Assembly: GCA_013141495.1 (NCBI GenBank)
Contig: JABFQV010000019.1
Span: forward strand, 1 to 39,817
Direction: 5' to 3'
Source of the DNA: Methylotenera sp.
GTDB lineage: Bacteria > Pseudomonadota > Gammaproteobacteria > Burkholderiales > Methylophilaceae
DNA: 39,817 nt
The notes below the pieces were generated by a model. That model had not been told where the DNA came from, did no database searches, and saw only the letters and a program-made list of their open reading frames with translations. How positions within the stretch are numbered: position 1 is the stretch's first letter; every line of letters begins with the position of its first letter. Made by a program: the position numbers and the translations under genes. Shown here piece after piece: positions 1-39,817 of this stretch.

Positions 1-2161
1 CGTTATCATCAACTTGTATTTGATAATAAAGCTGGAATTGTTCGCGCTCGAGGGCTTTGCGTAGCTCACCCTCAAGGTTAGCGCGGTTGTTGATGGTTGT
101 CTGCATTTGCGGGTCAAAAAAGCGTAGGGTGTTGCGGCCGGCTTTCTTGGCTTGATACATGGCAATGTCGGCCTGCTTCAATAGTTCATCGATGCCGGAT
201 TGATGGTCGTTGAATACAGTGGCGCCGATACTGGACGTGCTGTGGTGTTCATGCTTGCCGAGCTGATAGGGTTGCGATATTGCTTCAAGGATTTTTTCGC
301 CGATAGCCTCCGTTTGCGCGGCGGCCTCTAACGCAACGTCACTTAAGTCTTCCAGCATCACCACAAATTCGTCGCCGCCTAAACGTGCAACGGTGTCGCC
401 TTCGCGCACCGCGGCAGTTAAGCGCGCTGCCACTTGCTGTAATAACAAATCACCAACTGCGTGACCCTCTGTGTCATTGAGTGTTTTAAAGTGGTCAAGA
501 TCAATAAACAGCAATGCACCTTCTTTGCCACTGCGCGCGCTAAAGGTGAGTGCCTGCGTCAACCTGTCCAGCAGCAACCGTCGGTTAGGTAAGCCTGTAA
601 GCGAGTCATAATAAGCGAGATTTTTAATTTCCTCTTCTGCCGCCTTGCTCGTGGTGATGTCGGTGAGCGTGCTCACATAGTTGGTAATAACACCTGCTTG
701 GTTTTTAACAGCACTTATTGAAACATGCCCTGGGTAAACATCACCATTTTTGCGCCTGTTTTGAACCTCGCCCTGCCAAGAGCCGTCTTTCTTGACACGA
801 TCCCAAATGGCTACATAAAAACTTTCATCCACATTACCTGCCCTGAACATACTCGCGTGCCGGCCAATAACCTCTGCCGCGTTGTATCCAGTCATCTTTA
901 TAAAAGACTGGTTGACTCTTAAAATCAAGTGGTTCGCATCCATCACCATCATGCTTTCTTGCGCGTCAAAAGCAGTCGCGGCAATTTTAAGTTCCGTTTC
1001 AGATTTTTTACGTTCAGAGATGTCAATAAAAGTAGCAATCGCACCAATGATGACGCCGTCAGTCACAATAGGTTGCGCCCAGTATTCTACCGATATTGCA
1101 CTACCATCTTTACGCCAAAATACCTCGTCCGCATTATGCACTTTCTGATTACGCTGATAGGCGGCATACATGTGACACGCATCCGCTGGGTAATGGCTGC
1201 CGTCCGCATACGAATGATGAATGAGCTCATGCATATGCTGGCCGAGAATTTCACTCTCGCTCTCAAAGCCAAGGATACGCAAGAATGATTTATTCACAAA
1301 GGTGCAGTTACCCTGCAGATCTACGCCATAAGCGCCTTCTGCCATTGAGTTTAGCAACAACTGCATTTCTTCCATCGCGTCTTTGATAAGCTGTGTTCTG
1401 CTGGCTACTTCATGTTCTAGCCGATTGTTTTGCGCCGAGAGCTCTTGCTCATGCTTTTCAACTTCACTCAACATGAGATTAAACTGGTCGGTTAAGTCGC
1501 CTAGCTCGTCATCGGCCACCCGCTCCACCCGTTGTGAATACAGGCGCGCTTTAGCAATGTTTGCTGCACTGCGGGTTAAACGCTCAATCGGTTGCATAAT
1601 GTCTTTAAGCATACCGCGTATCAACAGCAAACTAAAAATTAGCGCCAATATCATCGCCACGATAGCCGCAGCGATGGAGGCAACAACCTCAACCCAAACC
1701 GTGACCATATCTGATTGAATTCTTACCTTGCCCAAGGTTTTTTGATCCAGGGTAACGTTATGTTCAATGGTTACCAGCGCATGCTCACCCAACGCCCACG
1801 CCAGCATTTTTCGAACAACACCTGTAAGCGCGGCGACATTATCTTCACCGCCTCGTTGCCTCAATGTCCTCTGCGCTAAAACCTTGCCTTGCTCGGTGAG
1901 TATCTCAGCGTAAACAATGTCCTGATTGGGCGCCAGCGCATTCAGCGTTTCTTCCAATACGCTTTTATCATTAAACAATAATGCGGTTTGGCTATTTAAT
2001 GCCGTGATTTCTGCAAGCACTTTTAACTCTGCCGTCGCCTCAGCACGCTCGGTGGCAATTTTGTAAACCGCGCCAAACATAAATGTAACAATGAGCGCCA
2101 CCACAACTGCCGCCATGGCTAAATACCTGATTTCACCGCGGATGGTTTTTTGCTGTGTCAT
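1..2161 (-). CDS. Membrane-bound sensor diguanylate cyclase, CHASE8-HAMP-PAS-PAS-GGDEF with start of EAL (3' end beyond window)
   Basis: The frame reads from ATG at 2161 to the window edge (about 720 residues) without a stop. In order: a first membrane helix (about residues 10-32), a periplasmic CHASE8-like segment containing ALLFNDKSVLEETLNAL, a second helix (about 155-180), HAMP, a short coiled coil, two PAS domains (about 265-370 and 385-500), a GGDEF domain with intact ARLGGDEF, and the opening of an EAL domain (ELRKALEREQFQLYYQ). CHASE8-HAMP-GGDEF is the architecture of YfiN, which makes c-di-GMP and is restrained by periplasmic YfiR. Here a YfiR-like gene ends 4 nt upstream, so the same control is likely (inference). 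The added PAS and EAL domains differ from classical YfiN. The intact GGDEF implies synthesis; EAL activity cannot be judged because its catalytic part is outside the window. Confidence 0.9.
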   Translation of the reverse strand, partial: MTQQKTIRGEIRYLAMAAVVVALIVTFMFGAVYKIATERAEATAELKVLAEITALNSQTALLFNDKSVLEETLNALAPNQDIVYAEILTEQGKVLAQRTLRQRGGEDNVAALTGVVRKMLAWALGEHALVTIEHNVTLDQKTLGKVRIQSDMVTVWVEVVASIAAAIVAMILALIFSLLLIRGMLKDIMQPIERLTRSAANIAKARLYSQRVERVADDELGDLTDQFNLMLSEVEKHEQELSAQNNRLEHEVASRTQLIKDAMEEMQLLLNSMAEGAYGVDLQGNCTFVNKSFLRILGFESESEILGQHMHELIHHSYADGSHYPADACHMYAAYQRNQKVHNADEVFWRKDGSAISVEYWAQPIVTDGVIIGAIATFIDISERKKSETELKIAATAFDAQESMMVMDANHLILRVNQSFIKMTGYNAAEVIGRHASMFRAGNVDESFYVAIWDRVKKDGSWQGEVQNRRKNGDVYPGHVSISAVKNQAGVITNYVSTLTDITTSKAAEEEIKNLAYYDSLTGLPNRRLLLDRLTQALTFSARSGKEGALLFIDLDHFKTLNDTEGHAVGDLLLQQVAARLTAAVREGDTVARLGGDEFVVMLEDLSDVALEAAAQTEAIGEKILEAISQPYQLGKHEHHSTSSIGATVFNDHQSGIDELLKQADIAMYQAKKAGRNTLRFFDPQMQTTINNRANLEGELRKALEREQFQLYYQIQVDDN

Positions 2162-2165
2162 CACG

Positions 2166-2693
2166 TTATTGCATCACCTTGCGGGCAACGCGCAGTAACT
2201 TAGAGCTTATAAATAGCTGTGCATTTTTTGCCTGCGCATAATTCACATCAAAAGCTAGCCGTTTGTTATCTAAAAATAGCCCGATCATAGCGCCTGCATT
2301 GAAAAAATCGAGGTTGTCGGTCACCGTCAACACTGGCATTTTCTCTAGCTTTTTAAGCAGCTCGGCAGGGTTATCAAGGGCGGAAACATCGATAAAAAGT
2401 ATTTGGCAGTGTTGCGCGTTATCTATGTTGGACAAATAGGACAAGGTAATTTGAACGCTACCGCTTGCGTTTTTGGTGATTTGTTGCAACGCGCCGCCAA
2501 AGCTATCATTACCTAATACACATATCCTGACTGCATTATTTACGTGAGTAGGCCAAGTTGTAAGCGTAGCGAAGTTATATAAATAAGCCGCCTTCATTTG
2601 ATACTCAGGAACAGGCTCCGCAACGGCTACACGTGGCAGGCTAAACAGCGCAACCACAAATACCCAGCTCAAAAATAAGCGCGTCAGTTTCAT
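2166..2693 (-). CDS. YfiR/DUF4154-family periplasmic protein
   Basis: This 175-residue protein has an N-terminal signal peptide (about residues 1-25, ending AVA-EP). The family hallmarks follow: a helix with AAYLYNFATLTTWP, a central segment on secreted-protein scale, VLTVTDNLDFFNAGAMIGLFLD, and a C-terminal FISSKLLRVARKV. YfiR proteins bind the periplasmic domain of YfiN-type diguanylate cyclases and hold them inactive. The start ATG overlaps the stop of the receptor gene upstream (ATGA arrangement), and the cyclase starts 4 nt downstream, so the three genes form one transcription unit. Family assignment is firm; repression of this particular cyclase is inferred from gene order. Confidence 0.88.
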   Translation of the reverse strand: MKLTRLFLSWVFVVALFSLPRVAVAEPVPEYQMKAAYLYNFATLTTWPTHVNNAVRICVLGNDSFGGALQQITKNASGSVQITLSYLSNIDNAQHCQILFIDVSALDNPAELLKKLEKMPVLTVTDNLDFFNAGAMIGLFLDNKRLAFDVNYAQAKNAQLFISSKLLRVARKVMQ

Positions 2694-4678
2694 TGAAAGT
2701 CGTAGGTCATGCGCAACCAGTAACTACGGTCGTCTTGTGGAATAGTCGTCATAGGGTTGTTGCCGCGCAGATTACTTCTAGGTGCAACCTGACTGTAATC
2801 ACGATCAAACAAATTACGTATGCCGAACGCAAGCCCTAAGTGAGGTAGCAATTTGTCTGCCGTAATGGTTAAGTTAGCCAGGCTATAACCGCCAGTTACA
2901 TTATTTGCTTCAGTTTTACGTTCACTATAACTTTGAACTTCAAAAGCAGCACGCCATCCCTGACTCCAAAACGGAATAGATAGATTGGCTTTTGCTACCT
3001 GACGCGGCGCATTGACTTGCCAACTGCCCTTAGCATTGGTTGCATTTTGTGCGGCAGCGCTCACTCTAAAGCGCACATTGTTATGCCAATGTTTTTCAAG
3101 CTCAAGCTCAGCACCATTGGACTCACCACCACTTCTGTTATTAAATTGTAACTTGCCTGCAGTGGGCACATTCCAAATGTAATCGTCTGTTTGGTAATGG
3201 TAAATTGACCCCAGCAAGCGTGTATCTTGATCAAAATGATGCTCAATCACCAGCTCGGTAGCATCCACACGCTCAGGCTTCAGGTTAGGGTTAGTCAATT
3301 GCGCGTCATTATCAGTGTAGTACTTCTCAAACGGACTAGGCCTTCTGTAAGCAATACTTCTTGAAAGCTTAAATGAGGTTGTATCAAAGGGCTTGTAAGT
3401 TAAGGCAAGCCGCGGACTTAGCTTTTCAGTACTATGGCCAACTTTATCCTGATTTGAATCAAAACGTGCACCTATGTTGGCTACCCAATATCGGTTAAAA
3501 CTGATTTCATCTTGTAAATAAAAGCTTAATGTTTTTTCATGTGTATTTAATTCACTGACTGGTGTCGTTATCTTTTGCTCAAAATCATAGCGAAACTCAC
3601 TACCAAACAAGATGCGCTGATTTTTAAACCATGACCCCACGAACTGCGCGTTTAGGCCCCACCACTGACCGTCGGAGGCTTCATTCCAGGGCGTGCCGTA
3701 AGTAGCTAAACCACGATAACCATAATGCCCATAATAGCCATTGAGTGACATCTGAACAGATTGACTTAATTGCCTATCGTGTTTAAGGCTGGCTTCTAGG
3801 CTGGTATCTTCATAATTGTACGGCGCATTAAAATCCGCACCGTATGGCGCGGTTGGAACATCTTTTTTTCGGGTTGAATAAGCCACTTGTGCCACCCATT
3901 CACTCCATTCCACCTTGCCAAACAGGTGTCGGCTTTGCTGATCATCCAAGTTGTGGGCAACGCCTCCACTCCCATGGTTGGCATTGGCAAAGTAATGATC
4001 TTGCCCATCGCTATTAAAACCAGAAGCTGAAAAAAGCACTTCAGCGCCATTATCCAATCGCTTACCATAATTGATTTTGGCGTCACGGCCGCCATAGCTC
4101 GATACTTCGCCCACAACCTGCAAACCGTTGATGTCATGCCCTTGCTTGGTAATGATATTGATAATGCCGAAAAATGCATTGTTTCCATAAACGGCCGAGC
4201 CGGGACCTGACACATATTCCACCCGCTCAATCATTGATGGATCAATGATGCCGGTATAAGCCAAGCCAGCGCTATTGTAGATATTATTATTGATCTGGCT
4301 ACCATCGAGCAGCAGCATAATACGCCCGGTAAAGTCACCTGGGCGCCCAAACCCACGGCCGCCTAAAAATGAGTAGGCTCGATCGTTGGTAATATAAAGT
4401 CCACGCATGCTCTCCAGTATTTCAGCGAGGGTATGGTAGCCGTAGGCTTTAATATCCTCTGCCGTTACGATGCTGACAGCTGAAGGCGCGATACTGATTT
4501 GATTGGCAATTTTAGACGCGCTTTGCACGTTCATCGTCACCAATTGCTCGATTGGAATTTGCGTGAGATCGCCTTGATTGCGGACATCAGCATCCTCAGC
4601 CAACGCTTGAGTGGTAGCAGTTAGCATGACTAAACAACAATAGATGAAACTGTTAAACCGCAATATTGCTACCCCCAA
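2690..4678 (-). CDS. TonB-dependent outer-membrane receptor
   Basis: The 662-residue protein has a signal peptide (residues 1-27, ending ALA-ED), a plug domain with SVSIVTAEDIKAYGYHTLAE, GGRGFGRPGD, IERVEYVSGPGSAVYG and FFGIINIITK, then a 22-strand-type beta barrel with the usual TonB-dependent motif LKPERVDATELVIEH and a C-terminal aromatic strand. A TonB box is not obvious. It may take up a metal chelate, but no substrate is evident. Receptors followed by YfiR and a GGDEF or kinase gene recur in proteobacteria and suggest that receptor occupancy feeds c-di-GMP signalling (inference). The gene leads the operon, and a perfect palindrome 25 nt upstream probably controls it. The final codons TTT CAA TGA overlap the yfiR-like start. 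Confidence 0.92.
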   Translation of the reverse strand: MGVAILRFNSFIYCCLVMLTATTQALAEDADVRNQGDLTQIPIEQLVTMNVQSASKIANQISIAPSAVSIVTAEDIKAYGYHTLAEILESMRGLYITNDRAYSFLGGRGFGRPGDFTGRIMLLLDGSQINNNIYNSAGLAYTGIIDPSMIERVEYVSGPGSAVYGNNAFFGIINIITKQGHDINGLQVVGEVSSYGGRDAKINYGKRLDNGAEVLFSASGFNSDGQDHYFANANHGSGGVAHNLDDQQSRHLFGKVEWSEWVAQVAYSTRKKDVPTAPYGADFNAPYNYEDTSLEASLKHDRQLSQSVQMSLNGYYGHYGYRGLATYGTPWNEASDGQWWGLNAQFVGSWFKNQRILFGSEFRYDFEQKITTPVSELNTHEKTLSFYLQDEISFNRYWVANIGARFDSNQDKVGHSTEKLSPRLALTYKPFDTTSFKLSRSIAYRRPSPFEKYYTDNDAQLTNPNLKPERVDATELVIEHHFDQDTRLLGSIYHYQTDDYIWNVPTAGKLQFNNRSGGESNGAELELEKHWHNNVRFRVSAAAQNATNAKGSWQVNAPRQVAKANLSIPFWSQGWRAAFEVQSYSERKTEANNVTGGYSLANLTITADKLLPHLGLAFGIRNLFDRDYSQVAPRSNLRGNNPMTTIPQDDRSYWLRMTYDFQ

Positions 4679-7845: not shown

Positions 7846-9792
<1,947 letters not shown>

Positions 9793-9835
9793 CGCCACCT
9801 AAATTGCATTGCGCTTACGCGGGCAATACCAAATA

Positions 9836-9866
9836 AAAAGGCAGGCCGGAGTGGCTTGCCTTTTTT
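9836..9866. terminator. Rho-independent terminator after thiC
   Basis: AAAAAGGCAGGCC and GGCTTGCCTTTTTT form a stem with a 5-nt loop (one G-U pair) ending in a six-T run. The A-run on the other side lets it also serve the convergent doc gene. Confidence 0.85.
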
Positions 9867-9878
9867 ATTTGAAGCATT

Positions 9879-10274
9879 CTATTCTTTTAGAACTGAATGG
9901 CTACGTATCCAATTAGCAAAGTCTTGCTCGGTGATTTCACCCGCTGCAACATCGAGCATAGTCAGCACTTTTTCAGCATCAGTTGCTAATAAAGTAAAGC
10001 CATTTAATCTTAAAAAAAGCATTGTCGCAACAAAGGCGGTTCGTTTATTACCATCAATAAAAGGATGGTTACGTGCAGTGCCATAACCGTAACTAGCAGC
10101 TAGTTCAGCCGCATCTGGCACCCCATAAGCCGCAAGATTTTCAGGCCGTGCCAACGCAGATTCCAACAAAGTAAGGTCACGCACACCGCTCAAACCACCG
10201 TGATCCGCTAACTGCTCATCATGCACAGCCGACACTATGCCAATTGGCAACCACACCCATATCGCGGCTGTCAT
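9879..10274 (-). CDS. doc: Doc-type toxin (Fic/Doc fold) of a toxin-antitoxin pair
   Basis: The 131-residue protein has the Doc signature HPFIDGNKRTA (residues 70-80). Doc uses this motif to phosphorylate elongation factor Tu and stop translation, unlike AMP-transferring Fic proteins. The upstream family segment HDEQLADHGGLSGVRDLTLLESALARPENLAAYG is also typical of Doc; the first eight residues are less so. Its ATG overlaps the stop of the AbrB-like antitoxin gene by four bases, so the two are translationally coupled. The catalytic His, Asp, Asn, Lys and Arg are all present, so the toxin should be active. Confidence 0.93.
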   Translation of the reverse strand: MTAAIWVWLPIGIVSAVHDEQLADHGGLSGVRDLTLLESALARPENLAAYGVPDAAELAASYGYGTARNHPFIDGNKRTAFVATMLFLRLNGFTLLATDAEKVLTMLDVAAGEITEQDFANWIRSHSVLKE

Positions 10275-10495
10275 TTTGCCAACTCACGTAGCACCGCACG
10301 GTTTTCCTTCATGATTTCACGGGCAACTTTCATCTGCGCCTCAAATTCTTCGTCATGGGGCGTAATACGATAGCCATCAGGGCTTTCGCTAAGAAAAATC
10401 TCATCACCCTTGCCCACTTTGAGTTTAGCTAAAAACTCTTTAGGCAAAATCACCCCAAGTGAGTTACCTATTTGCGTAAGTTTTAATGTTGTCAT
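10271..10495 (-). CDS. AbrB/MazE-type (SpoVT-AbrB fold) antitoxin partner of Doc
   Basis: From ATG 10495, preceded by GAGGG, the 74-residue protein shows the swapped-hairpin DNA-binding fold: LKLTQIGNSLGVILPKEFLA, then KVGKGDEIFLSES, with a charged C-terminal helix (FEAQMKVAREIMKENRAVLRELAK) that probably neutralises the toxin. A longer frame to 10591 runs back through the promoter region and is unlikely to be used. Doc is classically paired with Phd; here the partner is AbrB-like. Binding to the 18-bp palindrome 30 nt upstream would give the usual autorepression (inference). Confidence 0.88.
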   Translation of the reverse strand: MTTLKLTQIGNSLGVILPKEFLAKLKVGKGDEIFLSESPDGYRITPHDEEFEAQMKVAREIMKENRAVLRELAK

Positions 10496-10524
10496 GGCAT
10501 TTCCCTCAATTAAGCATAAGTACG

Positions 10525-10542
10525 TTATAACAATTGTTATAA
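10525..10542. promoter_or_regulatory. 18-bp perfect palindrome, probable operator of the toxin-antitoxin operon
   Basis: TTATAACAATTGTTATAA reads the same on both strands and lies 30 nt upstream of the antitoxin ATG. It contains -10-like TATAAC/TATAAT words on both strands, so a bound antitoxin dimer would cover the promoter. Confidence 0.65.
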
Positions 10543-10621
10543 TATTGCTTTGCACTAAGCCTGTAAAGCAGAATGCTAGACTTAGCATCATTCTTTATGA
10601 ATAGGCTACCTGCCAGAAACC

Positions 10622-10677
10622 TGTAAGAAAAAAAATTAAGTTTGTAAAAAAGGCAGTGAGGTTTATCAGAGGGTTTA
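10622..10677 (+). repeat. Degenerate duplicate of the thiC 3' end
   Basis: Positions 10635-10677 align with 9748-9791, the last codons of thiC, at about 39 of 44 positions with one deleted base. Both end in GGTTTA plus a stop-forming base. Weaker similarity extends left to about 10622. The copy is frameshifted and is only a remnant. It lies on the far side of the toxin-antitoxin pair from thiC, so the pair is bracketed by two copies of the thiC end in the same orientation. Confidence 0.8.
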
Positions 10678-10744
10678 GCTTAAATATTCACTCAATAAAA
10701 AGCCTGAGAGATGATCTTGCTTTTTACTACTTTCGCCTCTTAGT

Positions 10745-11479
10745 TCAAAACTGTGTACTACTTAAACAATCTGAAACCAAAGTATTCACTTGTTGCTCAG
10801 GCAAAACGCCCAAAAGCTTAACTCCACCAGCCAAGTTAAGCTTTTTCATAGCCTCACGAATTAACGTACGCTCAAAGAGTTTTTTATCTGAATGGTAAGA
10901 TTCATGCAATTTTCTTAAAATAGCTGAAAATACATTTAAGCATTGCGCTGTCGTTGGCCTCTCGACAATGTTAGCTCTAACGTCAGATTGATATAGCAAT
11001 GTCGTTAAAGCATCTTCTAAGCTTAACCCGTGCGTGCGGTTACAAAGTGCAGCCATCCACCACAGCCTTGAGGCCGCATTATTTCTTTCTATGCCACGGT
11101 TTGCTATGCAGAAAAAATGGTCTTTTATAAACTTAACGGCTGCCATGTCATCCGCAGGAATCACCCATCTAGCGCGCGTGTAAGGTAACAAAACCGTATG
11201 GGTTAAATATACCCACAGTCGCGCATCACGCGCATGAAAATGCGTGAGATTTTTCATCGCCTCAAAAATCAATATGCAATTTTTTACTTCGGCTTCATTT
11301 TTATTTGCAGGCAATAATTTTTTTAATTTTGCATCATCTATTTCAAATGCGACCTCAAAGTAATGGTCGGTATTATTCGCTTCAAAATCAAAGTTTCCTG
11401 TGCGGTATTGTGCCAAATTGTTGGCAATATCTAACTCAAGTTCTTTCAAGTATTTTTCTTTAAAAAAGCGCGCGTTCAT
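10745..11479 (-). CDS. DUF6339-like protein, last gene of the methyltransferase/GHKL operon
   Basis: The 244-residue protein is mostly helical, with no signal peptide or membrane segment. Recognisable blocks are DARLWVYLTHTVLLPYTRARW (about 108-128), ASRLWWMAALCNRTHG and the C-terminal LNLAGGVKLLGVLPEQQV. These resemble the DUF6339 family as I remember it; the function of that family is not established. No catalytic triad, nuclease or nucleotide-binding motif stands out, though the conserved Arg/Trp-rich blocks suggest a nucleic-acid or ligand-binding surface. It begins 2 nt after the stop of the preceding gene, so it belongs to the operon. It could be an effector or an accessory specificity factor. 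Confidence 0.65.
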   Translation of the reverse strand: MNARFFKEKYLKELELDIANNLAQYRTGNFDFEANNTDHYFEVAFEIDDAKLKKLLPANKNEAEVKNCILIFEAMKNLTHFHARDARLWVYLTHTVLLPYTRARWVIPADDMAAVKFIKDHFFCIANRGIERNNAASRLWWMAALCNRTHGLSLEDALTTLLYQSDVRANIVERPTTAQCLNVFSAILRKLHESYHSDKKLFERTLIREAMKKLNLAGGVKLLGVLPEQQVNTLVSDCLSSTQF

Positions 11480-11481
11480 GC

Positions 11482-12318
11482 TTAGTCTTCCTTCTGCACT
11501 AATACATATTCATTTAAACGTTTAAGTGGTTGCATCATCATTTGCTGTGCAATCACATACGCATCATCCATTTCTAAATTGCAATTTTTGTTATGTGCAT
11601 GCTTCATAAAAACTTGCGCCCATTTTCTTTCAATATATGGGTTCTCAGGGTCTTTAAGTTTTTGTATTGCCTCTGTTACTGCACCAAAATAGATAGAATT
11701 CACCAGTATCACTTTATTTTTTGTGCTACTACTGCGCGCAGCATCAATTATGCGCTTAGTTTCAGTGCTTAAAATAATCTGAATATGTTCACTATCAAAA
11801 TCAACCCGCCAAGAATCATTTGGCTGGTCTTCTTTTTGCACCAAATCAAGCACAGAGGTTATGGGCTTAAACGATTCTTGGTCAAAATACACCAAATAAG
11901 CTTCATCTTGCGCCAATACATCGCCCACATTAAATGTAAACGTTGCCACGCCAAATTCGGGGTTGATATCTGGCGAGCTAAAATTTTCAATTGTTTTGTT
12001 AGCAACTACATAAGGGTTTACAACAACAGCCCCTTTTAAGTCGCCCATTGCATAGCTGGCCTGTGTTTTACGCTCATGACTGCGAATCATGTGCTGAAAA
12101 TATGTATCTCTACATGAAACCATTGCCACAAACTCAGCATTACCTAATTCAACTTGTTTTAAAATTTCAGACGACGAAATGGCAAAGCTCACATCAACCA
12201 AAATGGTTTGTTTTTCAGTTTTAAAGTTTACGGTTGTTTGAAAATCACAATCAAGATAATCATCACTATCTGGGCGCAACACAGGATAAGGAAACGCCTT
12301 GTATTCATCAAATTTCAT
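11482..12318 (-). CDS. Uncharacterised protein of the methyltransferase/GHKL operon
   Basis: No family was recognised in this 278-residue protein. The first 180 residues alternate short beta strands (TTVNFKTEKQTILVDVSFAI, VATFTFNVGDVLA, EAYLVYFD), suggesting a beta-sandwich. The last 90 are helical, with KVILVNSIYFGAVTEAIQKL and IERKWAQVFMKHA. It lacks a signal peptide, membrane helices and Cys/His clusters. The start overlaps the end of the GHKL ATPase gene by 11 nt, so expression is coupled to it. Coupling and constant position suggest it is a physical partner of the ATPase (inference). Confidence 0.7.
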   Translation of the reverse strand: MKFDEYKAFPYPVLRPDSDDYLDCDFQTTVNFKTEKQTILVDVSFAISSSEILKQVELGNAEFVAMVSCRDTYFQHMIRSHERKTQASYAMGDLKGAVVVNPYVVANKTIENFSSPDINPEFGVATFTFNVGDVLAQDEAYLVYFDQESFKPITSVLDLVQKEDQPNDSWRVDFDSEHIQIILSTETKRIIDAARSSSTKNKVILVNSIYFGAVTEAIQKLKDPENPYIERKWAQVFMKHAHNKNCNLEMDDAYVIAQQMMMQPLKRLNEYVLVQKED

Positions 12319-14188
12319 AAGCCACCACCTTTAGCGCACCTAAATACTCTTGTTTCATGCTAATTTCAATTTCAACACGTTGCCCCTTTATCACCTCTAA
12401 AGCCACACCTGCGTCTTTGAGTAAGCCAACGCTTGTGTTGTGTATGGCAACTACATATTCTGCATCTGCCCCAACTTGCAACATTTTTAGCTGAATCATG
12501 CCTGCTTTAGTCGGAGTAAAAAATACTTTGCGTGATTTCCCACTCTGCATAATGGCGCGTATATTTTGCAATGCAACCAATGATTTTGTAGGGTTATCAC
12601 CCGCACCTTTTTGTTTTGGATTGTCTGGTTGCGTTACTGTAGAACCATGATGCTCAGCGTCATCATCACCACCTAAGTCTCCATCATCTAAGCCCAAACC
12701 AGCATCTAAACCAGCTTTTGTACTTGCAAGTGATTTAGACTTCATTTGCTTAGCGCGAATAATAATATTACCTAATGGGTCGGCTTCTTCATTATTTTTG
12801 CCACCACCTGATTCGTTTTCATCACCAAAAAATTCTTTTAACTCGTCAATAGAAGTAATTTCTGAAACGGGGTCTTTTGCATGACGTTCTAACGCTTTAC
12901 GAACCATTGTGGCAATTTCTTTAAGCGCTTTTTTGCCTTTTATTTTCTCTGCTTTATCTAGCAATAATTCAGGCTCAAAATCATCATGCCTTGGTGGCTC
13001 CATCGCCCGTAATAAGCCATTACCCGCTTCTGAACCACATGTAAATACAGCCGAAAACTCTTTGAAATCTGAGAAGCTTTTTAAGCCAGCAATGCTTTCG
13101 GAAATGAACATGCCATTTCTTAAAATGCATACTTTTTTAGGTAAATTTTCCCCTAGTAATATTTTTAAATCACAATACCCAAGTGTGGCAGTTTGGCTAG
13201 ATTCAGTTAAATTGGATTTTAGTGCCTTTAAATAGTTGTAGCGATTATTAAAGCGCTCTATATCTTCTTTTTCTAAATCTCCCACATTAAATTCGTTTGT
13301 GATATTTTTTTCATTAAAATATTCATCAATAGTCGTTGCATCAAGCCTATATTGATCATCTATATTGACGACCAACTTACCATCATTAATAGCCCCAAAG
13401 AAGTTTTCCATAACTGACATTGTTAGTAGTTTTTGCCAATTTTTAGGCTCATCAAAGCATAGAATGCTAAGCTTAGTACCAGTTTTTTGTTCTTTATCCC
13501 TAGCTAGCCAGCCTGGCAAAGTAACGTCGAAATTAACAATAGGCTGGCAACGACTTTTAATTCCCCAAAAACCTAACCCTTGTTTTCTTTCCACCCCAAC
13601 ATCATGAGACATTAGAATAGAGCGTCCTTGTGTTAACTGTGTAAGTTCACCATCAATACTTTTTGAAATACTTGAAACGAAGACTGTACGCAACTTTGAA
13701 ACTGCATAAGGTGCAAATTTGCCTATGCCGTATGAACCCCCTGCTGTTTTAGAGTCTTTAACTGACTGACCTTTTGCTTTCATAAAAGCATAAAAAGGTG
13801 TGCCATTTTCAGATGGGCCACGCATCCCAAGTGTATTAAAGTCTGAGATTTCCAATACAGATATTTCTTTTTTCTTAAGCTCTTCTTTAGCAGCTTTAAA
13901 GAAAGATTCTGCTTTAACACCTTCTTTTGATGCGCCTAGTGAGCAATGGTGAACAATGTCTCTAAACTCATCAATGTTGGGAATTTGTTCAGTTGAGATT
14001 TTATTAAGTTTTATTCTTACAGAAACAGCCTTGTTTATATCATCAGATGCATCAAGTGCATTCTGTATAACTTCTCGAGCCAAGTGCTTAACTGGACTTC
14101 CTCTGAAATGCTCTATTCCAGGTTCGTTAAAACCATCCCATTGATCTGAATCATCAGTAGGGTGATGCCACCCGATAACATTGCTCAC
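12308..14188 (-). CDS. GHKL (Bergerat-fold) ATPase, MORC/MutL-like, of a restriction-like system
   Basis: The 626-residue protein starts at GTG 14188 in a GTGA overlap with the methyltransferase stop, with GGAG upstream. The N-terminal ATPase motifs are intact: N-box LAREVIQNALDASDD (37-51), the ADP-binding ISDFNTLGM (114-122), and the lid motif GGSYGIGKFAP (150-160). A second domain follows to about residue 430 with ILRNGMFI and MEPPRHDDFEPE. Next comes a Gly/Asp-rich linker (about 470-545, including DAGLGLDDGDLGGDDD) and a C-terminal beta-rich domain. GHKL ATPases of this kind were described as MutL/MORC-like components beside cytosine methyltransferases. They act as ATP-driven clamps, not nucleases. 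No nuclease motif is visible in the C-terminal half. Confidence 0.85.
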   Translation of the reverse strand: MSNVIGWHHPTDDSDQWDGFNEPGIEHFRGSPVKHLAREVIQNALDASDDINKAVSVRIKLNKISTEQIPNIDEFRDIVHHCSLGASKEGVKAESFFKAAKEELKKKEISVLEISDFNTLGMRGPSENGTPFYAFMKAKGQSVKDSKTAGGSYGIGKFAPYAVSKLRTVFVSSISKSIDGELTQLTQGRSILMSHDVGVERKQGLGFWGIKSRCQPIVNFDVTLPGWLARDKEQKTGTKLSILCFDEPKNWQKLLTMSVMENFFGAINDGKLVVNIDDQYRLDATTIDEYFNEKNITNEFNVGDLEKEDIERFNNRYNYLKALKSNLTESSQTATLGYCDLKILLGENLPKKVCILRNGMFISESIAGLKSFSDFKEFSAVFTCGSEAGNGLLRAMEPPRHDDFEPELLLDKAEKIKGKKALKEIATMVRKALERHAKDPVSEITSIDELKEFFGDENESGGGKNNEEADPLGNIIIRAKQMKSKSLASTKAGLDAGLGLDDGDLGGDDDAEHHGSTVTQPDNPKQKGAGDNPTKSLVALQNIRAIMQSGKSRKVFFTPTKAGMIQLKMLQVGADAEYVVAIHNTSVGLLKDAGVALEVIKGQRVEIEISMKQEYLGALKVVAYEI

Positions 14189-15201
14189 TTATTGCGCTCC
14201 TTGTCTATTTTTTCTCTTATAGATTTTGCCAACAATGCTACTACAGGCACTGAAACTGAATTTCCAACTTGAGTGTAACGCTTATTTCTACCTAAACTTT
14301 CGGGAAATTTAAATGTGCTAGGAAAACCTTGTAATTTTAAACATTCATACTCAGTTAATTTTCTGAGTCCATTTTTATCATGAATAAATGGCACATTATG
14401 CCCACCCAGCCCCATGTTTGCTGTAAGTGTAGGGCATTGATTAGGTTCTTTTACTCGAACCAAATATTTCCTGAGCTGATAAATACAATTTTTGTCATCA
14501 ACTTCATCGCTAATCATTTTGTGATAGCGATTTTCTTCATGTAGATAGTATTCATCATCTTGCTCTCCCGCAAAATCAATATAATCTGTCAATTTTTTTT
14601 CTTCTGTAAATGTGACAGCTGGAAAATTTAGCCGACCATTTTTAAAATGGTCGATTGAAAACGCAACCATAAACAACCTATTACGCTTTTGTGGCAATGG
14701 CGTTAAATCAAAACAGTCGAGTTCTGCTGAGCTTGATTCTCTAAACCAATAACCTAATCCCTTAAGCTCTTTGCTTACCTCTAAAAACCACGCACCACCC
14801 TCGCCATTACGTAAGTGTGGTGAGTTTTCTAACACTATTACAGAAGGCTTTTTATCGCCGAACTCTTTAACAATTCTAATGATTTCATAAAAAAGTTTAC
14901 CTCTGTCATCCTCAAAGCCTTTACGTTCACCCGCCATAGAAAAACTTTGACATGGGAAACCAGCGTGCAATAAGTCTACGGGCTCCAATTGATGAGTTTT
15001 AACTTTAACGTCTTTAATGCTTGCAGGAACATCACCGTCCATAACAATACGAACACCGCTAATGTTGTGTTGATATGTTTGAACTGAGGCTGAGTTATTC
15101 TCAATCGCCCAAACAGTTTTAATGCCAGCCTGTGCAAATCCTAAACAAAATCCACCAATACCCGCAAACAGCGCACCTGCTTTTAATTCATTTTGTTGCA
15201 T
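14185..15201 (-). CDS. DNA (cytosine-5-)-methyltransferase
   Basis: The 338-residue enzyme has the C5-methyltransferase motifs in order: I FAGIGGF (12-18), IV GFPCQSFS with catalytic Cys84, VI LENSPHL (124-130; Ser instead of the usual Val after Glu-Asn), VIII QKRNRLFMV (171-179), a short target-recognition region, then IX-X ending QVGNSVSVP (311-319). It adds a methyl group to C5 of cytosine at an unknown site. It is shorter than many homologues because the recognition domain is compact. The gene starts 5 nt after the small upstream gene and overlaps the GHKL ATPase gene, so it sits in one operon. Its DNA is more AT-rich than the flanking housekeeping genes, suggesting transfer. Confidence 0.95.
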   Translation of the reverse strand: MQQNELKAGALFAGIGGFCLGFAQAGIKTVWAIENNSASVQTYQHNISGVRIVMDGDVPASIKDVKVKTHQLEPVDLLHAGFPCQSFSMAGERKGFEDDRGKLFYEIIRIVKEFGDKKPSVIVLENSPHLRNGEGGAWFLEVSKELKGLGYWFRESSSAELDCFDLTPLPQKRNRLFMVAFSIDHFKNGRLNFPAVTFTEEKKLTDYIDFAGEQDDEYYLHEENRYHKMISDEVDDKNCIYQLRKYLVRVKEPNQCPTLTANMGLGGHNVPFIHDKNGLRKLTEYECLKLQGFPSTFKFPESLGRNKRYTQVGNSVSVPVVALLAKSIREKIDKERNK

Positions 15202-15206
15202 TTTAA

Positions 15207-15440
15207 TTATTCAGTTTCATCTAAAACGAAAGTCTTTTTATTGGAAATATTGGAATTCGAAAAAGCATGTTTAACATCATCAAGCTCTTGCTGCAATGCT
15301 TTGATAATTTTTTTCGCTTGCTGTTCAGTATATTCATAATTTTGCTTATTCGCCAAATTGCCAATAAGTTGAATATCTTTAATGGTTTTATTAACTCTTT
15401 TATTTGCGAGCTCAATAAATTTTATTGATTTATTCTTCAT
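15207..15440 (-). CDS. Small helical protein, first gene of the methyltransferase operon
   Basis: From ATG 15440 the protein has 77 residues, charged and helical (KFIELANKRVNKTIKDIQLI, NYEYTEQQAKKIIKALQQEL), probably a coiled coil. A GTG at 15455 would add five residues. Small proteins with an 'LIGNL-NYEYT-...-ALQ.EL' pattern occur as hypothetical proteins beside restriction-type genes (recollection). No helix-turn-helix is evident. The start codon lies in the left arm of a perfect 19-bp inverted repeat, so its expression may be self-limiting or repressor-controlled. It might influence methyltransferase expression, because the two genes are 5 nt apart. Confidence 0.6.
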   Translation of the reverse strand: MKNKSIKFIELANKRVNKTIKDIQLIGNLANKQNYEYTEQQAKKIIKALQQELDDVKHAFSNSNISNKKTFVLDETE

Positions 15441-15477
15441 AATTGAAATATACACTACATTTCAATTATGAAGAATA
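15431..15477. repeat. Perfect 19-bp inverted repeat over the start of the methyltransferase operon
   Basis: Arm 15431-15449 (TATTCTTCATAATTGAAAT) and arm 15459-15477 are exact reverse complements separated by nine bases. The left arm contains the start codon and first codons of the small gene, so an RNA starting upstream would fold its start into a hairpin. A transcription factor could equally bind it as a two-site operator. Confidence 0.8.
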
Positions 15478-15685
15478 TATTTAATTAATTATCTTCAATT
15501 ATTTTGTTAACATTATTTTTAATGAGCGTTGTTTCTTAGCTACCTCCATAAAACCAGTTAAATACACAAATCTTGCCGCAATAATTCTCATTTTTATGTC
15601 ATTTTGTTACCTGCGGAGATGAGGGTTATTAAATCCGTAGGGAGCTACACTTTTATTTGTTAAAATAGCCTTACAAATTAAATGA
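15478..15685. other. AT-rich spacer between the island and rluB
   Basis: Very AT-rich at the island side and of normal composition near rluB. It must hold divergent promoters for the island operon and rluB. A TAAAAT word at 15661-15666 is a candidate -10 box for rluB. No gene was recognised. Confidence 0.5.
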
Positions 15686-35829: not shown

Positions 35830-38784
35830 TTACAAGTCCAGCTTTGCCTGAACAATATTGCTGTGTTGCGCTCTAACTCTTGCAAAATCTAGTAGTTCTG
35901 GCAGTCTGGCATTTTTACTACGCCAATCTGCAAACATAGACTCACCCAACAAAACATAGTGCCAATTGCAACCATCACGTTGCTCGGGTTCAAGGTTGTT
36001 AATCCGCTCACACCACGCAACAGCTGCTTTTAATTTGCGTTGCACATTCGGATGTGTTGTTTGTTGCTGCGCTTTTGTTTCAACTAAATACACGGTATTT
36101 TCAGTTCGCACTAAAAAATCAGGGGAGTAAAATGCTGGCAATCCATCTTCTTTTACATATCTTAATCGTGCAAATGTGTGACGGTTCTCGCTAATTTTAC
36201 AAAAAGCTTGCACGCCACTATCCGCTTGCGCCCACTGCATAAAGGCTCGTTCTAGCCCGCCGTTATGGCTAGGGTAAGCTAGTCGCTCATAAATACACTT
36301 CGTCACTTCTATCGAGTTACTTTCACGCATCATTAAGCGCGGCACCTCTGATAATTTTCGATAATGCACTTCCGTTTCGCCCGTGATATTTTTCTGCTCA
36401 GACTCCAATAGTGCCACCGCAAACACTTTACTAATATGCTCGATGACAGGTTGTAAAAGTAAAATACGCCAGTTTTCATTTTCAAGTGGATTAAAGTCTT
36501 GCCCAAATAAATAGAGCCAAATGTAATCATCTAACCAACCTGTTAGCTCGGCGGTATTCACCTGCAAATATGGGTTTGCCAAGTGTGTAGCAATTTTATT
36601 GCCTTTGGGTAGCGGCTGGCTGAGTGCTTGGCTAATACGTCGCGTTAACCTTGCCAAATAATCGTTATAGCCATTCACATTCATCACCGCGCCATCCACG
36701 CGATAATCGCCAAACAATGTACTGCTTTGCAAATCATGTGAAATAAACGTATCACCCTTACCCAGCATGTTGGTAAGTTCTATTGGGCTAAGCGCGGTAA
36801 ATGTTAACAACGCACTCAAATCTAATGTTCTATGCTCTAAATGCTCTTCCGCCTCACGCAAAATAAAGGGGATTGCAAAATCAAACGTCTCAAATCCCTC
36901 ACATAATTGTGCTGCAATCACATCACCTGTACTGCTGGTGCTATCCGTTTCTTCCGTAGTTGTACCAGCCACACCATCTTTGGTTAAATCATCATAAAAA
37001 GATTGAAACGCAGGGTGTTCAATAATCGAGAGAATATCCAACAAGCTACTTGGCTCTTTGCTTTTGTTAATCAACTCGCGGTTTTCATGTTTTAGGTCTG
37101 TGTATTCATCATCGCGCCACATCAAGCGTAGACCTCGCCCAATGGTTTGCTCTAGCAAAATCTGCGCTTGGCTTGTGCGTAACGGCACAATCACGCAAAT
37201 ATTATTCACGTCAAAACCTTCGCGCAGCATCAATACGCTAACAATTACTCTTGGCGTTGCATGCTTATCTACACTAAATAATCGCTCACGCACTGGCGCC
37301 CAATCTTTTTCGCCTAATTCAGCTTTTTTGCCAGAATCAATCAACATCACTTCATCGGCATTCAAACCTTCATTTTGTAAAAAATGGCTCACCAATGGTG
37401 AAACTGTCGTATCTTCACAGACCACTAGCATTTTAGGATGTCGGCTTGGGTCTATTTTTGCAAAGTCTATTTCTAGTTTTTTAAGTTTCTGCAAGCCAGC
37501 ACGCAACATCACACGCTGACCTTCGCTTAAAACTGCATCCCCATTCTCATCACGTTCGGCTTTAAACTCTAAAGGTAGCGCACCAATTTCTTTTCGCTTA
37601 TCTAATACTAACGATTTAACCAAACCTGCGCGCATGGCAGATTTCAAATCAAAATCGGTAATAATATGGTTAAAGTACAGTTTACTTTTGTTTTTGCCTG
37701 AACCAATATCGTTATAAGGCGTTGCAGAAAAATCCACCTGCACAAACTTTCTGCCTTTAGTTTCTGCAATGCGCGTTAGGCTTTTTTGCCATTCCACCTC
37801 GGTACATTCACCTTCTTTTTTAATTTCATGAATATGGTGCGCTTCATCGTTAAATACCATCAATTCGGGCAAGTTGGCTAAAAAGTCCAACACATTACCA
37901 CGCGCATAACGCCTATCTAGCACATCTAAACTATTGCCTGTGGCCTTGCCCGGTGACAGAGGTAGCACGGCTTTGATGACTTGCTCAGGGCTTACACTTG
38001 CGGCAGGTGCAAATAGTTCCTCAGTAAATTCATCGTTTAATTGCTCTTCCACTTCACTTAGTAAATGCCAATTGGTAATGCCTATCATGCCATTGCCTGT
38101 GGCTTTAAGCCCAATTTCAGTTTTGTTACACACATTGCCGCGCACAAAACCAAACACCACATCGCGATACTGTTCAGGGATAAACAATTCCGCAAATTGT
38201 GCCACATCTGAAGTGGAAAAATCGCGTGAGTTATTTTGCCCAACAATCAACTTGCCACAAAACGCATCTAGCAAGCGCTCATAAACAATTAAGCCTGGGG
38301 CTACGATTAGAAACTGCCGAGTAAATCGTTCATCTGCAATATCTTCTGCGCTAGCCGCTGTTTTATTTAGCAATTGCCAAATCATTAACGCCTGTAACAC
38401 CCAAGTTTTACCTGTACCCGTTGCCATTTTCAGGCAATATTTTGGATGTGCATTTTTATCTGCCGCTAATTGGCTAAGCAAATTACCTGTCAGTAATAAC
38501 TCGGGCGCAACTTTGCTGTATAAATCTTTCAGGCTGGTAGATTGCAACACCTCATGCGCCACAATCGCATTTAATATGGCTTGCTTTTGGCCCACGTGAA
38601 AATTTAAGCCGTTGCGGGCTAGCACCATATCTTCACCAAACCACCACTTGAGTAATTCGGCAGTCGTGGGTGTGACTAACTCTAAAATTTCGGCTTTACC
38701 AGACTCTAAGCCAAGGCAAAGCTGTTGCGTCTTTTTAGTCAGCGCGCTGGCTAGGGGCAGTAGCTCTTCTTTTGAGGTACTCAT
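35830..38784 (-). CDS. Type III restriction enzyme Res subunit (SF2 helicase-nuclease)
   Basis: The 984-residue protein combines an SF2 helicase core with a C-terminal nuclease. Walker A MATGTGKT lies at 120-127, DEAH at 313-316 ([10 protein letters not shown]), and motif VI is [12 protein letters not shown]. The nuclease has a PD-(D/E)xK-type site, SPDF near residue 889 and VETK at 901-904. Type III Res subunits translocate or diffuse on DNA and cleave between head-to-head unmethylated sites, together with Mod. The ATG overlaps the mod stop (ATGA), so the genes are coupled. All motifs are intact, so it is probably active. Some automatic schemes place such sequences in narrower restriction subfamilies; that was not resolved here. 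Confidence 0.92.
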
Positions 38785-39817
38785 ACCGCCTCCACCATAT
38801 CACTCACTAAAGTAACAACCTCAGCTTCAAAACCAAATACATCCACCACGCGCACACACACCTTTCGTACACCAGCAATGGCTGGCACATTCACTACCGC
38901 TTTAGTCACAACGCGTAAATGGTCACCGTCATTTTCAACATTGCCTCGATAATCTTGCCAAACAGACCTAAAAACTACGCCGTCGTAATGTGGGTCAACT
39001 GCCCAATATTCAATGAGTGCTAGCGGCTCTTGGTTAATCACCGCTTGCAGTTTTTCACGGTTGGCTTCGTCTAAGTTAATGGCTTCGGGCGAAAGCAATA
39101 CGTAGTTTTTAAGGTTAATGGTGAGCGTCTCAAATGAGTTACCCCCTCCCTCTGCTAGGGGGACGGCTGGGGTGGGGGTGCTACCGTGACGATTTACCCG
39201 CGTAATCGGATAAATCGTCAAATACTGCAAACTACTAAAGCGCACTTGCCCACGTAGTTTTTCAGCACTGCCTTTTTTCTTTAATCTATCCATTAAATCA
39301 GGCGGAATCACCAGCACTTCTAAACGACTATCATTAAGCGCGGTAATGGTTTCACCAATAGAAGGCTCAAAGTTCCAGCCTAACACCACCACTTTATCCC
39401 AGCCGCCCATTAAGCTATCGCGCTGGGCAATGGCTTTTTTCAAGGTGGCGGTGCCAGTGAGTTTGTTGGGTGAATCTGCTAGCACTAAGGTTTTATTACC
39501 ACCGTTATTTACTTGTCCTAAATTTCGCTGTGGATTATCTTCAGGTGATAAAGGCAATGCGCCATACAGTGACAGTACAATTTGCGATAAATCGCCCATG
39601 CGGAAGTTGCGCCCAAGGCTAGATTTAGCCGCTTCTACTTGATAATCTCCAATGGCTTGGTATAAAAATGGCTTGGCATTTTGGTCGATCAAGCGTTTGC
39701 GCATAATCATGCAAGCAGGCTTGCCTAAATCTGTAGTAATCCAATTACGTCCTAACTTCTCAACAACAGCGGCAGTTGTCCCTGAGCCTCCATTAAAGTC
39801 AGCAATGATTGAATTAT
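38781..39817 (-). CDS. Type III modification methyltransferase Mod, C-terminal part (5' end beyond window)
   Basis: The frame is open to the window edge. The first visible residues, [20 protein letters not shown], are the AdoMet-binding FxGxG motif of a beta-class N6-adenine methyltransferase, in which the catalytic DPPY comes earlier and so lies outside the window. The remaining 340 residues hold the mod C-terminal region with [36 protein letters not shown] and [20 protein letters not shown]. Mod recognises the site and methylates one strand for protection. A methionine at 39710 is internal and is not the true start. A G+C-rich repeat has been inserted in frame at 39139-39183. Confidence 0.93.
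39139..39183. repeat. In-frame palindromic repeat insertion within mod
   Basis: On the coding strand the sequence reads CACCCCCACCCCAGCCGTCC and continues through CCCTAGCAGAGGGAGGGGG, a dispersed intergenic repeat type with a CTAG-centred hairpin. It encodes a stretch close to [14 protein letters not shown], which breaks the otherwise conserved run from ITRVN to [15 protein letters not shown]. Length is compatible with the reading frame, so Mod continues through it. Confidence 0.7.

Follow-up and report, generated by a model that had tools for sequence, protein, structure and literature searches.

A 39,817-nucleotide (nt) stretch of DNA from Methylotenera sp. (Methylophilaceae; assembly GCA_013141495.1, contig JABFQV010000019.1, positions 1 to 39,817), hereafter the window, contains an operon of five genes in which a C5-cytosine methyltransferase, M, is joined to a predicted GHKL-like ATPase, A, two accessory proteins, B and C, and a small protein, S, and in which no nuclease is recognised. 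We tentatively propose, giving the idea somewhat less than an even chance, that S-M-A-B-C is a methylation-guided module against foreign DNA that would block such DNA without cutting it. All five genes lie on the minus strand: S at 15207-15455, M at 14185-15201 (338 amino acids, aa), A at 12308-14188 (626 aa, GTG start), B at 11482-12318 (278 aa) and C at 10745-11479 (244 aa). Their reading frames are open and closely packed, with a 5-nt gap between S and M, overlaps of 4 nt between M and A and 11 nt between A and B, and a 2-nt gap between B and C, exactly as an earlier note on this DNA had described.

The same gene order is kept at five other loci (L003-L007; loci are given by L numbers) from Burkholderiales, Deltaproteobacteria, Methylococcales, Massilia and Limnohabitans, with protein identities of 45-71%. 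Against the locus of a genus-mate (L002), the ratio of nonsynonymous to synonymous substitution (dN/dS, the quotient of the computed dN and dS) is 0.074 for A (501 codons), 0.094 for B and 0.071 for C, so these three genes are under purifying selection. The conserved order and the low dN/dS values confirm that the operon is a real arrangement and not a chance one. Its spread is patchy: when 398 genomes of the phylum were searched with a model of A, 10 matched, three with E below 1e-90, and of 61 relatives, A is present in the window's genome and in one genus-mate only.

We surveyed 42 A loci, made up of the window, six of the eight loci of a first search, 24 loci that lie in 23 genomes, and 11 taken from a set of 25 plasmid records; the incomplete loci L002 and L008, one G784 fragment and 14 plasmid records were left out, and three L. 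salivarius loci, as well as L085 and L086, are near-duplicates. Labels for neighbouring genes came from BLAST comparison with a small set of reference genes, some of which also occur in the loci, and from Pfam on chosen genes. A, B and C could all be assigned at 36 loci. At 22 of these the assignment rests on similarity to the window's proteins, either directly or through L009, L018 or L019; at the 14 loci of a distant branch, B and C were assigned by position and by similarity within the branch, and L037 has the only C of those scanned in this branch that reaches the DUF6339 cut-off. In L059, C was assigned by position only. The triad keeps its order in L037, L038, L089 and L090. The survey found no match for B in L062, for C in L086 and L092, or for either in L093 and in L085, where the contig ends; marginal B hits at L014-L016 were dropped.

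In a maximum-likelihood tree of 37 A rows (L004 absent), the window groups with L003, L005, L006, L007, L020 and L082 in a clade with support of 100/97, and throughout this clade M lies immediately 5' of A. Because a solitary M is also seen outside it, in L009, L018 and L087, this layout may have arisen more than once. As separate observations, L018 carries HD-CE and ORC-CDC6-like genes directly behind A-B-C (1495-4421), and HipA genes lie near the core in L018 and L082 (12001-13227).

A matches the family PDC-M33A nearly full length (PADLOC, 6.4e-103), and its motifs are intact. Invariant in all 36 aligned A rows are R38, E39, Q42 and D46; D116, T119 and G121; G151, G154 and G156; and G237, columns whose succession matches that of the boxes N, G1, G2 and G3 in GHKL proteins, as we assign them. 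R357, E397 and H401 are invariant as well, the last two forming an ExxxH motif that every one of the 36 rows carries on the C-terminal side of the ATPase region. The MORC motif GhXhhpXXRhl was found by pattern search in none of the 36. The available text of Iyer, Abhiman and Aravind (2008; PMC2292703) describes a conserved ExxxH in paraMORC2 proteins and paraMORCs without the MORC motif. Judging from its motifs, A thus carries the signature of a GHKL-like ATPase of the paraMORC2 type. The earlier note had named it a MORC/MutL-like GHKL ATPase with intact motifs; the motifs hold, with D116 correctly picked out as the motif-2 aspartate, whereas the signature is that of paraMORC2 and not of MORC. 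The cysteine Cys84, which the note had placed in the same protein, belongs to M.

M is the C5-cytosine methyltransferase that had been recognised at first sight (PF00145, 2e-60). Its nearest solved relative is M.HhaI (1e-29), its motifs include PCQ at 83-85 (the source of Cys84), EN at 125-126 and QxRxR at 171, and a genome search returned it as the sole PF00145 match of the window's genome. A stretch of M resembling RE_Bsp6I (0.041, under the cut-off of that family) was dismissed as chance-level.

Outside the window's clade the modification partner of the core is exchanged. By BLAST, Pfam and annotation, a methylase accompanies A-B-C at 40 of the 42 A loci, as expected if methylation is a shared self mark, and the chemistries are quite different. 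The L. salivarius loci have HsdS-HsdM immediately 5' of the core, with no HsdR seen within the stretch examined, and five loci (L052, L055, L059, L060 and L061) have only N6-type methylases within theirs. Vsr is present at 18 of 42 loci (16 through BLAST, L054 and L056 through annotation). In its place behind the operon, L003 has an EndoIII-like DNA glycosylase (9561-10268) and L004 a 55% identical homologue of it (11520-12191), so Vsr is better read as repairing 5-methylcytosine deamination than as an effector. Taken together, the loci show that A-B-C is an add-on to many modification chemistries, often adjoining a complete restriction-modification (R-M) system, and for this reason a "missing nuclease" is the wrong frame for the operon. 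Of the interpretation put forward in the earlier note, the intact R-M-linked set of methylase, GHKL-like protein and accessory proteins stands, and the MORC type and the framing around an absent nuclease call for revision.

Family scans, Pfam and PADLOC among them, found no nuclease family above noise in S, A, B or C, in keeping with the note's first impression, and structure models of the 278- and 244-residue proteins gave no nuclease among the matches listed. The operon therefore has no recognised nuclease, although a missing match is not proof of absence. The flanks examined in the clade of the window, which on one side span 1.1 kilobases (kb) in L003 and 0.4 kb in L007, likewise yielded no recognised restriction endonuclease. 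A PADLOC scan covered 66 of the 81 listed flank open reading frames (ORFs) and eight window ORFs; the ORFs of L018 and a part of those of L020 and L082 were not included, and the L009 flanks were excluded as likely antisense calls. Among the 25 listed of its 39 matching families, Vsr appeared in one member and the REase_II "nicking endonuclease" in three, which are presumably HhH-GPD proteins; there were also Type III Res and Mod matches, which fit the right end of the window. L087, outside the clade, is an exception to the endonuclease-free layout: a 413-aa gene upstream of its M has no Pfam match, but inspection by eye shows a stretch that is PD-(D/E)XK-like. Elsewhere outside the clade, failure to see a restriction endonuclease is a weak result given the limited labelling of neighbours.

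B and C are known to databases as families. B, which had been called an unrecognised beta-rich protein, matches PDC-M33B (PADLOC, 2.3e-46), and its predicted model does show a beta-sandwich (about residues 13-145) followed by C-terminal helices. C is mostly helical and, as suspected, is a DUF6339 protein (PF19866, 5e-41); it also matches PDC-M33C (PADLOC, 4.3e-38). Across 45 rows, C has the invariant charged residues R84, R87, H94, R102, R104, H121, R132, R138, D166 and R168, most of which are not kept in its distant relatives. No target-recognition domain was recognised in the A-B-C core.

S has no family match above noise, the best being to a PADLOC cyclase stretch (0.0023). At E 0.001 it has 195 homologues, and the 120 that are listed are 64-106 aa long (most 74-84 aa), with no Pfam domain in any. 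Because many relatives begin there, S most likely starts at ATG 15440 (15207..15440, 77 aa) and not at GTG 15455, which would give 82 aa. The description of a small helical leader protein is right as to its place directly 5' of M and probably as to its helices, and the start is what changes. With a profile, S was found at 22 of the 42 A loci, always on the strand of A and 5' of A or, in six, of M-A; in L035, S and A are separated by a Vsr gene. By the same profile, an 80-aa ORF of L055 and a 67-aa ORF of L059, both at the S position, are not S. Nine of the 398 genomes searched carry S, five of them at A loci (the window, L019, L032, L034 and L035). It also lies 5' of HATPase_c-like proteins in L048 and L049, and, in L050 and L051, of two proteins (825 and 852 aa) in which GHKL-like motifs were read by eye. 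Since it precedes A loci and other GHKL-like proteins alike, S recurs together with GHKL-like ATPases and is not tied to a single methylase. Separately, the ATPases behind S in L048-L051 have no PADLOC matches, and these pairings of S homologues with two further GHKL-like ATPase families point to possible undescribed systems.

How might such an operon act? In the mechanism that we favour, M would mark host DNA, and S, A, B and C would form a single ATP-driven complex around A. A would close as a dimeric clamp on DNA once the partner methylase has found it unmodified, and the clamped DNA would be blocked through compaction, or through arrest of transcription or replication, instead of being cut. 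B and C would serve as DNA- or partner-binding subunits and S would be the link between A and its partner. The constant core would be A-B-C, in many cases with S, and the exchangeable methylase would supply site specificity. Besides M, A is the only recognised enzyme-like product of the operon. The exchange of methylase partners, the HsdS-HsdM genes of the L. salivarius loci, the variable low-GC island described below and the PADLOC listing of A-B-C as a defence candidate also speak for this proposal. We take a clamp that blocks DNA to be the simplest reading because the methylases are unrelated, neither a nuclease nor a target-recognition domain is recognised, and the ATPase is the sole enzyme-like part. 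There are precedents: the available text of PMC8277788 and PMC12216690 describes eukaryotic MORC GHKL ATPases that entrap or compact DNA, and that of PMC11842806 describes BREX as requiring its methylase for site binding.

Several results weigh against this mechanism. No GHKL Pfam model matches any of the 36 A rows at E 0.1, and no solved structure in the PDB is a credible match to A. In hhalign, A aligned with proteins of relatives that we take to be HtpG-like with three motifs in register, a weak result (P 0.0033, probability 9.6%), and with MutL-like rows with one motif (P 0.0061); controls gave P 0.74 for reversed A and P 0.54 for C against MutL. None of A, B and C contains a recognised DNA-binding domain. 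A novel nuclease may lie in C, for which no match to a known fold was found, or in B. S is undetected at 20 of the 42 A loci and is therefore not obligatory. Finally, many relatives adjoin complete R-M systems with their own endonuclease, beside which a separate block would be redundant.

A broader version of the idea is possible, though we consider it unlikely. Here S-A-B-C would be a general nuclease-free silencing arm for any methylase, a MORC-like ATP clamp that recognises unmarked DNA and shuts it down uncut. In the window's lineage it would have become welded to its methylase in one operon, and S would be a coupling subunit common to at least three GHKL-like ATPase families. If true, bacteria would have their own equivalent of the MORC silencing that is linked to methylation in eukaryotes.

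The main rival, which we also judge improbable, is a MutL-like adaptor: A-B-C would sense or loop DNA and recruit or license a nuclease encoded elsewhere, namely the adjoining restriction endonuclease where there is one and, for the lineage of the window, a nuclease of the host. A-B-C would then be a part of restriction and would not itself do the blocking. This rival is at odds with the lack of a recognised restriction endonuclease beside the operon in the window's clade, and with partners from unrelated families, because of which a specific nuclease contact would have had to be re-made many times. Less probable again is that S-A-B-C guards a methylase or an R-M system and, when a phage inhibitor blocks that system, causes death or arrest of the cell, with B or C as the toxin. 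The regular company of many different R-M systems, the absence of a recognised specificity domain of its own and the many invariant charged residues of C would suit a guard. However, most of those residues are lost in distant C relatives, neither B nor C matches a toxin family, no toxin is among the structure matches listed, and in the clade of the window M is itself a gene of the operon, which one would not expect if the guarded system were an outside one.

We think it very unlikely that A-B-C is a MutL-like repair accessory that keeps down the deamination damage caused by M, in concert with a T:G glycosylase or Vsr. The Vsr genes and the EndoIII-like glycosylases of L003 and L004 speak for it; against it are the five loci with only N6-type methylases, the window's genome, in which a search found no Vsr match, and the variable island described below, which it does not explain. 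Most improbable of all is a decayed R-M copy that has lost its endonuclease: an EcoRII-type restriction endonuclease does sit beside related cores at six loci (L019, L056, L058, L083, L084 and L088), but the five open frames, the low dN/dS of A, B and C and the same layout without a recognised restriction endonuclease in a seven-row clade across several genera disfavour it, and relatives do not always carry an adjoining nuclease, as the earlier note had supposed they would if the operon were such a copy.

The operon is of a known kind; its new parts are S and the core with exchangeable methylase. A, B and C each match, nearly full length and adjacent in the order A-B-C, one model of PDC-M33, a candidate defence system of PADLOC-DB 2.0.0. 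S has no PADLOC model above noise and M only general methylase models, so that neither is among the three. According to the available text of PMC11811056, which credits them to Payne et al. 2021, the PDC-x entries are candidates that are unpublished. In the literature searched, which did not extend to subscription papers, we found no experimental test that names PDC-M33 or DUF6339. As the note had recognised, the operon belongs with the R-M-linked operons of Iyer et al., and the features shared with the paraMORC2 operons in the available text of PMC2292703 are GHKL-like motifs, ExxxH, no MORC motif, patchy spread, and methylase and Vsr neighbours. That text stresses helicase, RE-fold or Vsr partners, with a minority of MORC neighbourhoods lacking helicases, whereas neither a helicase nor a restriction endonuclease is recognised alongside the window's operon. 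It gives no description of B, C or S, although its figures may draw B and C. It places paraMORC2 mainly in cyanobacteria and Gram-positives, while many A rows here are proteobacterial because of where we searched. HEF_HK / Response_reg_2 elements (PMC8011034, available text) likewise combine a GHKL protein, an accessory gene and a C5 methylase, often with Vsr adjacent, but A, B and C have no such match. The A-B-C core is not described in the available text of PMC8011034, PMC3710099 or PMC12137116. BREX is alike only in working, with methylation as a self mark; no BREX model is among the matches listed for the five proteins (for M, 25 of 65 families).

R-M immunity consists of a methylase plus a nuclease. 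If our proposal is true, a mobile core that joins C5, D12 and Type I methylases, and that in one lineage acts with a solitary methylase and no recognisable nuclease, would be a new mode of reading self and non-self. It would also make testable the role of prokaryotic paraMORC ATPases, predicted in 2008 and with no experiment found in the literature searched, and would be relevant to how MORC-based silencing arose in eukaryotes.

The operon lies in a variable island between thiC and rluB. Alignment to L156 (ThiC 99% and RluB 94% identical in protein) places an extra stretch of about 5.7 kb at 9930..15652, with a GC content of 0.377 against 0.46 to the left and 0.448 to the right. It holds the operon and most of a Fic/Doc toxin and AbrB/MazE-type antitoxin pair, known from family matches, that lies directly downstream (9879-10591); L156 retains a Fic remnant. 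Between this pair and C, an imperfect direct repeat (10622-10677) of the 3' end of thiC (9734-9791; 86% over 58 columns) is a possible trace of a past insertion there. The thiC-rluB interval (9793-15685 in the window) is short in L156, L161 and L164 (459, 275 and 469 bp). In L159 it holds a Phd/VapC-like pair, recognised by eye; in L160 and L162 other C5 methylases, that of L162 being 59-63% identical to EcoRII-linked Dcm enzymes; and in L157 metabolic or transport-like genes. Such variability looks like that of a defence hotspot but is not proof of defence.

A perfect inverted repeat at 15431..15477, with 19-bp arms and a 9-nt loop, straddles the S start codon. It is the longest such repeat in the window, its RNA fold has a z of -6.8 and its exact arms occur nowhere else in the genome; it is possibly an autoregulatory operator or a translational hairpin at the start codon. 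About 20 kb from the operon, the window also carries a Type III R-M-like pair (35830-39815), in which a 984-aa ResIII-type protein is paired with an N6/N4 methylase that is truncated at the edge of the window.
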